A stretch of DNA of 64,000 nt, from positions 558,001-622,000 of the forward strand of contig JAQWRY010000086.1 in assembly GCA_029243485.1 (NCBI GenBank). The letters are read 5' to 3'. Of the stretch, positions 29,853 to 33,304 are shown piece by piece. The DNA is from Candidatus Binatia bacterium (GTDB taxonomy: Bacteria; Desulfobacterota; Binatia; UBA12015). The position numbers and the translations under genes were made by a program. The notes beneath the pieces were generated by a model that did not search any database, was not told the origin of the DNA, and was given only the letters and a program-made list of their open reading frames with translations. The number at the start of each line of letters is the position of its first letter. The first letter of the stretch is position 1.

Positions 29853-31187
29853 TCAGCGCACGTATCCGAGCGAGCGAAGCTCCTCGATGATTTCACCGTC
29901 GAGGTCGCTTCGCGCGACCGGTTTCTTTTCGTCGTCGTTGGTCGCGTAGGTTTCGATCGTCTGCTTCGTGCGGCCGGCTGCGTACTCTTCGGTGAACAGC
30001 TCGGTGAGCGGCCGGCCCCGGTGGTCGCGGGCCTGCGGCAGGTCGAGCGCGTAGAGCAGGGTGGGGAGGATGTCGAAGTGGGTGATCTCCCGCTTGGGTT
30101 GGGCACCCTTGTCGACCTGCGGGCCGGACAGGATGAGCGTGGCATTCTTGCGGTGTCCACCCGAGAGAAAACGCGCCTCGACCGAGTAGTCGTCGGCGCT
30201 TCGCTTCTTCGCGGAGGCGCGGAACCCGTGGTCTGAGAGCAGGATTACGAGGGCGTCTTCATCGATCAGCGGGAGCAGCCGGCCCGCGATCTCATCGACG
30301 TGCCGGTAATACGCCGGGATTACGTCGCCGAGCGCCTCGATCTGTTCGGCGGGGATCTCCCAGCGGTTCTTCTGGAACGGTTCGGGTTCGAACCACTGCC
30401 AGAAGCCGTGCCCGACGTAATCGGTGCCCTGCAGATAGACGGCCAGGACGTCGAGGTCTCGCTTGCGCGCGATCTCGAGCGCGCTGCCCGAATAGATCGA
30501 GTCTCGCCGGAAGATGTTCAGCAGGCGGTTCTGGAGCAGGTAGTGAACGGAGTAGCGCGGGTCGTCCTCGTCCAGGCTCTTCCATTCCCTGTCGAACTCA
30601 TAGGTGGTGAACTTGTCGAGGATCTCGTCCCGGCGGATGTGCGGCACGTGGCGGAGCGGCTTCAAGAGGCCCGGGGGCGTCACATCGTTCTTGAACTGCC
30701 CACGCCAGGCGCGGTCGGAGACCATGAGCCCCACGTCGTTCTCCGCGGGCCAGGTCACCATCCAGCCGACGGTCGCGAGGTCGATGTCTCGTTCGCTCAA
30801 GATGTTCCAGAACGTCGGTCGCTTCCGGTGGCTCGAGTTGACCGGGTCGTCGCCGATCCTGAAGCCGGTGATGCCGTGCACCGTGGGCGGGACGCCGGTT
30901 GCGACGGTGGTCCAGACGACCGGAGACGACGTGCCGACGACGCATTCGATCTCGGTCAAGGTGCCGCGGTCGATCAGCTTCGCCAGGTTCGGCATCGAGC
31001 CGTCGGCGGTCCACCTGCGGACGAGCTCGGGGTCGAGGCCGTCGATGCCGAGAAGCAGAACCTTGGCCTTGCGGGGTCCGTCTTCGCCGTCCGGTGTGGG
31101 CTCGGCGGCGATCGCTCGGGGAGCGACGGTGGCGAGCGCGGCGAGGACCAGGAATGTGAGAAGGGAGTGGAATCGTCGGTGCATCAT
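29853..31187 (-). CDS. secreted alkaline-phosphatase-superfamily phosphodiesterase/phosphatase
   Basis: 444 residues with a signal peptide (LLTFLVLAALATVAPRAIA). The metal-binding start is LLLGIDGLDPELVRRW (Asp49), the nucleophile region VVGTSSPVVWTTVATGVPP (Thr/Ser 86-88), and later LVILLSDHGFRASAKK (DHG metal motif) and GGHRKNATLILSG. This is the type I phosphodiesterase/nucleotide pyrophosphatase group. The ATG overlaps the upstream cytochrome fusion stop as ATGA, so it is translationally coupled to a cytochrome operon. Natural substrate unknown; nucleotides or phospholipid head groups are possible. Confidence 0.87.
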   Translation of the reverse strand: MMHRRFHSLLTFLVLAALATVAPRAIAAEPTPDGEDGPRKAKVLLLGIDGLDPELVRRWTADGSMPNLAKLIDRGTLTEIECVVGTSSPVVWTTVATGVPPTVHGITGFRIGDDPVNSSHRKRPTFWNILSERDIDLATVGWMVTWPAENDVGLMVSDRAWRGQFKNDVTPPGLLKPLRHVPHIRRDEILDKFTTYEFDREWKSLDEDDPRYSVHYLLQNRLLNIFRRDSIYSGSALEIARKRDLDVLAVYLQGTDYVGHGFWQWFEPEPFQKNRWEIPAEQIEALGDVIPAYYRHVDEIAGRLLPLIDEDALVILLSDHGFRASAKKRSADDYSVEARFLSGGHRKNATLILSGPQVDKGAQPKREITHFDILPTLLYALDLPQARDHRGRPLTELFTEEYAAGRTKQTIETYATNDDEKKPVARSDLDGEIIEELRSLGYVR

Positions 31188-32116
31188 TGCAGCGAACGAA
31201 TGTACGCGACGATGTTGATGATCTCACCCTTCGTGAGTTTCTTGCCGTACTTCAGCATGATCTCGGACTTGCCCACGCCCTCGCCGCCTTTTTCAGTGAT
31301 TTCGATCATGAACTCGTCGGTGACCCCGTCCATGGCGCCGGGCGCGGTCCAATCCCGGATCTCGGGCTTCTCTTTCAACATGGGCAGGAGGTAGCCGTCG
31401 CCCTTGCCCTGTATGCCGTGGCACTGCGCACAGCCGTGCTTGTTGTAGAGCGTCTTTCCGGCGGCGGCGTCGCCGGCGGCGTAGGCCGCCTGCGCGAGGA
31501 GGAGAGACGTCGCGCCGGCCACCAGGGCCTTGAACACGCTCTTGGATCCGAGGCGCTCTCGATTCTCAGCTTGTCGTTGGTTCATCACACTCTCCACGTT
31601 CACTCGTAGGTTGGGAAGGTAGGCGTAGAGCGTCGTGAAGTCGGCTCGCGCCATCACGATCGCATCGAGGTCGGTGCGGGCGCGGACGGTGGCGGTGCGC
31701 GGGGCGTCGCTCAGAAGCGCCATCTCTCCGAAGTACTCACCGGCGCCCATGGTTGCGAGAACCTGGTCTTCCCCGTCGGGATCTTCGCGGATGGCTTCGA
31801 CCTCGCCGGTCACGATCACGTAAACGAGATCGCCCGTGTCCCCCTGGCGGAAGACGGTCTCCCCGGCGTCGAAGTGAACCTCCGAAGTGCCGCGCGTGCG
31901 CAGGAAGTCGGTCGCCGCCACGAAGAGGGCGAGCGAGGCGCCCGCGACGATCGCGGCCTGCCCGATGATGAGGAACAGCGAGAGGGTGAGAGCGGTACAG
32001 ATGTTCACCGCGACCAGCGTCAGGATCGCAGCCAGCACGATCAGCACCTTGGAAAGGAGGAGCACGCGTCCGCGCAGGCGCTGGCCGGGGAGGCGTACGA
32101 GATCGGGCGCGTTCAT
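31184..32116 (-). CDS. cyclic-nucleotide-binding domain / cytochrome c fusion
   Basis: 310 residues from ATG 32116. Two N-terminal transmembrane helices (residues 18-70) are followed by a CRP-like cNMP domain (about 78-172) with the phosphate-binding cassette GEYFGEMALLSDAPRTATV, including Glu131 and Arg140. A third hydrophobic segment (KALVAGATSLLLAQAAYA, 196-213) leads to a class I cytochrome c with CAQCHG (Cys229, Cys232, His233) and Met ligand candidates in EIMLKYGKKLTKG. The predicted topology puts the sensor in the cytoplasm and haem in the periplasm. ATGA overlaps link it to both neighbours. The frame is open to 33562, but that extension is antisense to other genes. Confidence 0.82.
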   Translation of the reverse strand: MNAPDLVRLPGQRLRGRVLLLSKVLIVLAAILTLVAVNICTALTLSLFLIIGQAAIVAGASLALFVAATDFLRTRGTSEVHFDAGETVFRQGDTGDLVYVIVTGEVEAIREDPDGEDQVLATMGAGEYFGEMALLSDAPRTATVRARTDLDAIVMARADFTTLYAYLPNLRVNVESVMNQRQAENRERLGSKSVFKALVAGATSLLLAQAAYAAGDAAAGKTLYNKHGCAQCHGIQGKGDGYLLPMLKEKPEIRDWTAPGAMDGVTDEFMIEITEKGGEGVGKSEIMLKYGKKLTKGEIINIVAYIRSLQ

Positions 32117-32817
32117 CCCTCGCCCTTTTCGGGGACGACCTCGACGACGATGTCGGCGAGCTTCGGGTGCGCGGGGCCGTGGCAGACGAGGCACGAGGTC
32201 ACGGGTGCGCCGGTGTCCTCGTCGAGCTGCAGGAGGTTGTCGGAAATGGTCCGGTGAACACCTTGGCCGGATTCCAGGAAGCTCTTTGCGCCCGAATGAC
32301 ACTCCAGGCACGGGCCGTTGGTGTACGGCTGGTAGGTCTCGATCTGCTCGAGTCCGAGCGCCGTCGGGGAGGCCAGGAGCCAGTGGTAGAGGTGGGCGAA
32401 TCCGCGGAACTTCGCTTCCGCCTCGCCCCAGACTCCGTAATCGGCGTGGCAGCGGTAGCAGGGATCGCGAGGGATGTAGCGCTCCGACGAGTGGACCGCC
32501 GCCAGGGTCGTGCTGGAGGAATCCAACATGTCCGCGACGTAAGGGTTCATCGCCGTGTGGCAGGAGTGGCAGAACTCCACGGACTTGGCCTGCTCGATGC
32601 TCGCGAAGGCTCCGAAGAGCATCATGAAGATCGGCAGGATCGTGAGGCCCAGGAAAAGCATGGTGCTCGCGGTCGCAGAGACGCGTCTCGTACTTTCGAG
32701 AATGGAGCCGACGAGGACCAGGACGAGAACGGCGATCGCCAGCGCCGTCGCGACCCAAACGCCGAGGTCGGCGAACCCGCTGGCGCTCTGGAGCGGGACT
32801 TCGATCGTCAGGTCCAT
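32113..32817 (-). CDS. membrane-anchored tetrahaem cytochrome c (NapC/NrfH-like role)
   Basis: 234 residues. Two transmembrane helices (about 18-38 and 51-72) precede a periplasmic domain with four CxxCH haem sites: Cys83-His87 (CHSCH), Cys120-His124 (CYRCH), Cys170-His174 (CLECH) and Cys209-His213 (CLVCH). Tetrahaem quinol dehydrogenases such as NapC/NrfH/CymA pass quinol electrons to periplasmic partners. Here two anchors replace one, and similarity beyond haem motifs is not clear. First gene of the coupled three-gene operon. Confidence 0.85.
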   Translation of the reverse strand: MDLTIEVPLQSASGFADLGVWVATALAIAVLVLVLVGSILESTRRVSATASTMLFLGLTILPIFMMLFGAFASIEQAKSVEFCHSCHTAMNPYVADMLDSSSTTLAAVHSSERYIPRDPCYRCHADYGVWGEAEAKFRGFAHLYHWLLASPTALGLEQIETYQPYTNGPCLECHSGAKSFLESGQGVHRTISDNLLQLDEDTGAPVTSCLVCHGPAHPKLADIVVEVVPEKGEG

Positions 32818-32896: not shown

Positions 32897-33304
32897 ATGA
32901 AGCTCCTGCGAGCGGCATCGATCGTCTTCGGGCTTTCTCTGATCGCGCCTTTCCCCTGCCAGGCGGAAGGCGGACCGCATGAGAGCCAGGCGATGTTCCT
33001 GCGCTACTGCGGCAACTGCCATGGACCCGAGGGGACCGGGAATGGTGTCATGTCCGGCTTCTTGAAGAAGAAGCCGGCCGACCTGACCCAGCTCGCGAAG
33101 GCGAACGGCGGTGAGTTCCCGTTCCACAAGACGATGCGCTTCATCGACGGCACGCAGGACGTGAGCGCCCACGGGGATCCGGCCATGCCGGTCTGGGGCG
33201 AGGTCTTCAAAGCGGAGACCCGAGGCTCTCCCACCCAGCAGGCCGAGATCCGCGGCAAGATCCTCCTGATCACCGAGTACGTTCGCTCGATCCAGGAGGA
33301 CTAG
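32897..33304 (+). CDS. periplasmic monohaem cytochrome c
   Basis: 135 residues with a signal peptide (MKLLRAASIVFGLSLIAPFP, ending CQA) and one haem site RYCGNCHGPEGTGNG, the usual class I cytochrome c start. PAMPVWGEVFKAE probably supplies the distal Met ligand (around Met-Pro), as in cbb3 or photosynthetic c-type domains. Divergently transcribed from the tetrahaem/cNMP cytochrome operon and likely its redox partner; that is inference. The final helix ILLITEYVRSIQ is typical. Confidence 0.88.
   Translation: MKLLRAASIVFGLSLIAPFPCQAEGGPHESQAMFLRYCGNCHGPEGTGNGVMSGFLKKKPADLTQLAKANGGEFPFHKTMRFIDGTQDVSAHGDPAMPVWGEVFKAETRGSPTQQAEIRGKILLITEYVRSIQED

Follow-up and report, generated by a model that had tools for sequence, protein, structure and literature searches.

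Can one bacterial gene join a cyclic-nucleotide sensor to a haem protein, and if so, does a single mature protein carry both? The question is raised by a gene in the window, the whole 64,000-nucleotide stretch of Candidatus Binatia DNA that was analysed here. The original prediction had read this gene as two transmembrane (TM) helices, a cyclic-nucleotide-binding (cNMP) domain, a third membrane helix and a c-type cytochrome in one uninterrupted frame, with the nucleotide domain in the cytoplasm and the haem tethered in the periplasm.

The frame is open over all 310 codons, and the features in and around it are collected in Table 1. Kyte-Doolittle analysis placed the two TM helices at residues 19-37 and 48-66, with 19-residue means of 2.76 and 2.25, and hmmscan against Pfam matched residues 80-164 to cNMP_binding (92.8 bits vs a cut-off of 27.5) and residues 217-309 to Cytochrom_C (45.1 bits vs 21.3). 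The phosphate-binding cassette GEYFGEMALLSDAPRTATV, including Glu E131 and Arg R140, was found in the cNMP domain, and the CAQCH motif of the cytochrome is at residues 229-233. In an alignment of the four fused proteins described below, C229, C232, H233 and M287 are all unchanged, and M287 is likely the distal Met that would be the sixth haem ligand of the cytochrome domain. Both the N-terminal stretch and the stretch after the second helix are rich in Arg, so by the positive-inside rule these stretches and the cNMP domain are expected in the cytoplasm, and the cytochrome must then be periplasmic. Thus hydropathy, Pfam and the individual residues bear out the two helices, the cNMP domain with a good cassette and the CAQCH cytochrome, and the topology argues for the predicted layout with the nucleotide domain inside and the haem outside.

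Table 1 Features of the fused gene, its neighbours and the related small partner genes (positions are those of the window, or loci where so marked)
Feature	Position	Strand	Basis
Fused gene, 310 aa: two TM helices, cNMP domain, signal-peptide-like segment and monohaem cytochrome c	31184..32116	(-)	Open frame, Pfam matches
Two-TM module, residues about 1-76	31889..32116	(-)	Hydropathy; profile-profile match to small two-TM partners of tetrahaem cytochromes
cNMP domain, residues about 77-178, cassette residues E131 and R140	31583..31888	(-)	PF00027, E 1.3e-26
Linker and signal-peptide-like segment, residues 179-213, AYA then AGD	31478..31582	(-)	Hydropathy, fast evolution, g4 gene boundary
Cytochrome c domain, residues 214-310, CAQCH haem site, M287	31187..31477	(-)	PF00034, E 2.5e-11
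Tetrahaem NrfH/NapC-like cytochrome, two N-terminal hydrophobic segments, four CxxCH	32113..32817	(-)	PF03264
Divergent monohaem cytochrome c with signal peptide	32897..33304	(+)	PF13442, E 3.1e-4, below cut-off
Type I phosphodiesterase/pyrophosphatase-like gene	29853-31187	(-)	PF01663; overlaps the fused gene's stop as ATGA
Small two-TM protein after an NrfH/NapC-like tetrahaem gene	Loci L132, L133, L147-L150, L154, L156-L160, L200-L206		

Among 98 genomes searched, the whole length of the gene was found as a single frame in the window's genome and in three others of its genus, whose versions are 84, 79 and 68% identical to it and free of internal stops. The four fused genes have 309-312 codons and differ in length by whole codons. 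Because the frame is common to four genomes and the length differences are whole codons, a sequencing or frameshift artefact was ruled out as the cause of the fusion. The ATG of the window's gene at 32116 overlaps the stop of the upstream tetrahaem gene as ATGA; such an overlap with the tetrahaem gene, as ATGA or GTGA, is present in three of the genus genomes, and in G003 the gene is close by, so the fusion and its linked tetrahaem neighbour recur in 4/4 genomes of the genus. In the nearest relatives outside the genus the halves are separate. A second genus of this family (g4), represented by G006 and G010, has them in each of the two genomes as two genes in different frames with an ATGA overlap at the junction, and in an Acidobacteria MAG (L049) the tetrahaem protein, the protein with two TM helices and a cNMP domain (two-TM-cNMP protein) and the cytochrome c are encoded by three genes in the same order as in the window. 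The view that the halves are always separate genes therefore holds outside the window's genus but fails within it. A midpoint-rooted tree of 16 two-TM-cNMP proteins grouped the four fused genes in one clade (support 96/94) with split genes as nearest neighbours, and the simplest history would be a single merger of two overlapping genes. As a widespread architecture the fusion was ruled out for the loci searched: in the best 80 of 450 loci encoding cNMP relatives, where a motif-bearing ORF was present in 79 (all except L071), CxxCH-bearing cNMP ORFs were seen only in three of the window's genus. The fusion is genuine but narrow, limited to one genus within the genomes searched.

What the membrane part of the gene belongs to was seen from its neighbours. 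A tetrahaem profile, made from an eight-protein alignment, was searched at E 1e-6 in the window's family plus two Acidobacteria genomes (16 genomes in all), at E 1e-40 in 396 genomes of the phylum of another Acidobacteria MAG (L085) and 148 genomes of the window's class, and at E 1e-38 in the phyla of three further loci (phyla of genomes G545, G546 and G549). The last search matched 6/345 genomes in the phylum of G545; it matched 0/345 in that of G546 and 0/398 in that of G549, and a search of single genomes at E 1e-20 matched 0/8, these null results being without a positive control. The large searches scored part of the first-look candidates per genome (for example 7 or 8 of up to about 29), so their counts are lower bounds. 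Altogether 35 distinct loci passed the cut-offs, and in 16 of them a two-TM-cNMP gene lies directly downstream of the tetrahaem gene (four loci in the window's genus, two in g4, six in Acidobacteria including L049 and L085, and four in family f9 of the window's class). A monohaem cytochrome c is not found downstream of the two-TM-cNMP gene in eight of these 16 loci, and in four of them (f9) it is upstream instead.

No cNMP protein directly follows the tetrahaem gene in the other 19 loci, and all 19 have in that place a two-TM ORF of 63-92 aa, whose start ranges from 57 bases ahead of the tetrahaem gene's end to 31 bases past it, the two genes overlapping by four bases in seven cases. Only five of the 19 small proteins match the two-TM-cNMP profile directly (E <1e-3 among locus ORFs), and Pfam (three proteins) and NCBIfam (two proteins) gave no match. 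Profile-profile comparison by hhalign of 17 small partners with the TM half of the 16 two-TM-cNMP proteins gave a probability of 97.6% and an E of 3.1e-12 over 65 columns, while the controls (MscS, three NhaA stretches and the tetrahaem protein's own TM segments) stayed below 1%, four of the five controls being single sequences and hence weaker. Across the window's class, 29/148 genomes matched the two-TM-cNMP profile at E 1e-22; the match includes the TM part in 10, every one of which carries an adjoining tetrahaem gene, and it starts at column 56 or later in the remaining 19; these counts, too, are lower bounds. Judged by profile similarity and gene position, a two-TM protein is the usual partner of the NrfH/NapC-like tetrahaem cytochrome, and the two-TM part of the fused gene is homologous to this small protein and stands in its place. 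Apparently a cNMP domain was added to the tetrahaem cytochrome's membrane partner in Binatia and Acidobacteriota, and in one genus a cytochrome c was added too; the order of these gains is what we infer, the tree made here being one of two-TM-cNMP proteins only. Since each added domain joins the same membrane subunit, the partner may well touch the electron path. The cNMP-bearing partner of a tetrahaem cytochrome is the stronger novelty here, rather than the fusion. No description of a cNMP-cytochrome fusion, or of a cNMP protein with NapC or tetrahaem cytochromes, was found among the matches listed in the literature by title.

The tetrahaem protein itself passes the PF03264 cut-off (30.5 bits vs 24.1). 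Its best NCBIfam match is NrfH at 30.4 of the required 134.2, its napC_nirT score is 20.8 of 310.6, and because these scores are far below both cut-offs, we call it NrfH/NapC-like only and take quinol oxidation as an analogy. At E 0.01 no related solved structure was found, and no reductase gene is among the annotated neighbours. The natural candidates for its electron acceptor would be the adjoining monohaem cytochromes, and the divergent one has a counterpart in each of the six loci of the window's family that carry this gene cassette (five besides the window). On the other side, the PF01663 gene has a relative after the fused gene in G001, and none was seen beside the G003 gene; this gene was rejected as a cNMP-degrading part, being of the nucleotide pyrophosphatase type, with a signal-peptide-like start and no counterpart seen at G003. 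Some irregular sequences were also met in related loci. Between haems 2 and 3 the G010 tetrahaem protein (L043:12331-13395) has a QIRTYRRYRK-like motif in three tandem copies, which the other alignment rows lack, the second half of the G010 divergent cytochrome (L043:13102-13647) loses similarity to its relatives as after a frameshift, and in G479 an ORF with nine CxxCH motifs (L166:1-2256) follows the two-TM-cNMP gene.

Does the added cNMP domain bind a nucleotide? E131 and R140 are both kept in 12 of the 16 two-TM-cNMP proteins (the window's included), a gene for a HAMP and class III cyclase protein directly follows the two-TM-cNMP gene in L085, and class III cyclases give eight matches in the window's genome, as do cNMP domains. 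From the kept residues and the cyclases, the ligand is probably cAMP or cGMP. The Thr after the cassette Arg resembles that of cGMP-selective kinases, which we do not take to justify a choice between the two nucleotides. Among solved chains, the highest score for the cNMP protein went to a multi-domain protein of Toxoplasma (PCR12), ahead of PKG and PKA types. In the other four of the 16 proteins, all from family f9, one or both of these canonical residues are gone, which shows that the domain can be kept even where they are lost. These losses, together with the cNMP-free partners of related tetrahaem proteins in 19/19 further loci, would suit a domain that is a structural or protein-binding module only, with no nucleotide controlling electron flow. 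We hold this to be unlikely, because the canonical cassette is kept in the majority named above, the cyclase gene adjoins in L085, and no other part of the fused gene evolves as slowly as this domain (dN 0.03-0.15 between pairs).

A cNMP-bearing partner of the tetrahaem cytochrome leaves the question of how the second cytochrome is attached to it. The third hydrophobic segment (residues 193-211) is a real element, with a 19-residue mean of only 1.43 in the window's protein and 1.43-1.56 in the four fused proteins. This is below all 32 TM helices of the 16 relatives (1.78-3.09) and inside the range for the signal peptides of 13 free cytochromes (0.96-2.49), and as the two ranges overlap, hydropathy alone cannot prove a signal peptide. 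Basic residues precede the segment, and AYA, AHA, AHG or ADA stands directly before the haem domain in the four proteins. The junction evolves fast, with dN of 0.32-0.96 between pairs of fused genes against the low values of the cNMP domain, and with 29% identity between the window's gene and that of G003; its dN is lower than dS in five of six pairs, those with a defined dS. This fits a signal peptide, since a signal-transmitting helix would be expected to be better kept. An AlphaFold2 model from an 11-row alignment (mean pLDDT 61.6, below 50 for residues 188-213) has the two helices running into the cNMP barrel; it is too weak to interpret beyond these parts and silent on the junction.

The best reading of the third segment is that it is the cytochrome's retained signal peptide, and its description as a membrane helix is doubtful. 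A retained signal peptide with a signal-peptidase-like site would make the product a polyprotein, and judging from these features it is probably cut into two proteins. By the topology, sensor and haem are on opposite sides of the membrane, but a single mature protein probably does not carry both. The evidence does not support a haem tethered through a membrane helix: the junction has the properties of a cleavable signal peptide, and in the closest relatives beyond the genus the halves are encoded separately.

The third segment could instead be a signal anchor that leaves the fusion intact, so that one protein senses the nucleotide inside and carries the haem outside. The single open frame in all four genus genomes agrees with this, the two N-terminal helices would keep the protein in the membrane regardless, and the cleavage-like site is weaker in G002 (AHG). 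Against it are the hydropathy below that of every TM helix compared, the signal-peptidase-like residues ahead of the haem domain in 4/4, the fast evolution of the junction, and the two g4 genomes, each of which encodes the cytochrome as a free protein that has a signal peptide of its own; we think an intact fusion improbable. It is also rather unlikely that the cytochrome is made alone by internal initiation at M178, with full-length and short products coexisting. All four fused genes have GGAG-N6-ATG at this codon, followed by the signal-peptide-like stretch; but the split relatives also have M178 and, in part, the GGAG codons (present in G010, absent from G006), so chance may account for the site.

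Returning to the cleaved polyprotein, we lean towards an explanation of the whole locus, built on the sequence comparisons above, in which neighbours of the g4 type merged, the product is cleaved and a cyclic nucleotide tunes the flow of electrons from quinol to cytochrome. The fusion would be inserted in the membrane with its cNMP domain on the cytoplasmic side, the retained signal peptide would export the cytochrome, and signal peptidase I would cut. After cleavage, the two-TM-cNMP subunit would remain with the tetrahaem protein in the membrane, and the periplasm would receive an equal amount of cytochrome c. The tetrahaem protein would take electrons from quinol and pass them to the cytochrome, and cAMP or cGMP bound to the cytoplasmic domain would shift the two helices and so tune the quinol-to-cytochrome step. 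An effect of the nucleotide on electron flow would most plausibly act at the tetrahaem protein, the companion of the cNMP part, a pairing that the original prediction did not bring out. The opposite direction, in which the redox state of the tetrahaem complex alters the cNMP domain as a nucleotide sink or a contact for a cytoplasmic partner, is allowed by the same topology and suits a two-TM module encoded beside a redox protein in 35/35 loci, but it is highly improbable, as Pfam recognised no output domain in the cNMP protein and known cNMP domains serve as input modules.

A cNMP domain was also found at another point of the respiratory chain in two loci of the L085 phylum. An NDH-2-like dehydrogenase with its own C-terminal cNMP domain (L167:1955-3628, Pfam) adjoins a two-TM-cNMP gene, and a second one (L165:9892-11514, Pfam) adjoins a cytochrome c that follows a two-TM-cNMP gene. 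In L051 and L052, NDH-2-like dehydrogenases with a C-terminal cNMP domain were recognised by motif alone, and many other cNMP-relative loci hold ORFs of 500-600 aa. Among the literature matches listed for cNMP with NDH-2, no such protein was described by title. A different pairing of cNMP domains with multihaem cytochromes was noticed in L079, L092, L105 and L106, where large proteins encoded near genes for 8- or 10-haem cytochromes show, by eye, ferredoxin-like cysteine motifs together with two cNMP domains; those of L079, L092 and L106 have a flavin reductase-like part as well.

Where cyclic nucleotides control bacterial respiration, the usual account is one of transcription (CRP). Electrons enter the quinone pool through NDH-2, and the tetrahaem protein would drain the pool if it is NrfH-like in function. 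A wider view, which we offer only tentatively, is that cNMP domains were added separately at the entry to the pool (NDH-2) and at its exit (the two-TM partner), so that cAMP or cGMP would act as an allosteric, not transcriptional, valve on a respiratory branch, and the fused cytochrome would fix the ratio of sensor to acceptor. If this is true, a second messenger would reach electron flow directly and fast, through a cNMP domain carried by the membrane partner of a multihaem cytochrome on the quinol side. As there are matched families that have and that lack the cNMP domain, nucleotide control can be tested by comparing them, and the fused gene offers a natural construct in which one operon yields the parts. 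Published Binatota genomes have the genes for an aerobic chain that includes alternative complex III, and the term "cyclic nucleotide" is absent from the main text of the paper that describes it (PMC8262859).

Several known systems share parts of this arrangement. SthK and the Mesorhizobium Mll3241 channel, both among the matched solved chains, also have TM helices followed by a C-terminal cytoplasmic cNMP domain, but unlike such cyclic-nucleotide-gated channels the fused protein has only two TM helices, and no pore was seen in it. The NDH-2 proteins with a C-terminal cNMP domain likewise join this domain to an enzyme that feeds the quinone pool; however, they are pyridine-nucleotide flavoenzymes, whereas the cNMP domain of the window is on a helix pair beside a multihaem cytochrome. 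With the NapC/NirT/NrfH family (PF03264) the upstream protein shares four CxxCH motifs, a hydrophobic N-terminus and a score over the Pfam cut-off; NapC and NrfH have one N-terminal hydrophobic segment, while the window's tetrahaem protein has two, together with a two-TM partner gene. Bradyrhizobium FbcH is a cytochrome b/c1 polyprotein made from one gene with an internal signal peptide at the junction. The membrane half of our fused gene is a two-TM-cNMP protein, not cytochrome b, and its cleavage is predicted, but like FbcH it joins a membrane protein and a c-type cytochrome in one gene, probably with a signal peptide between them.
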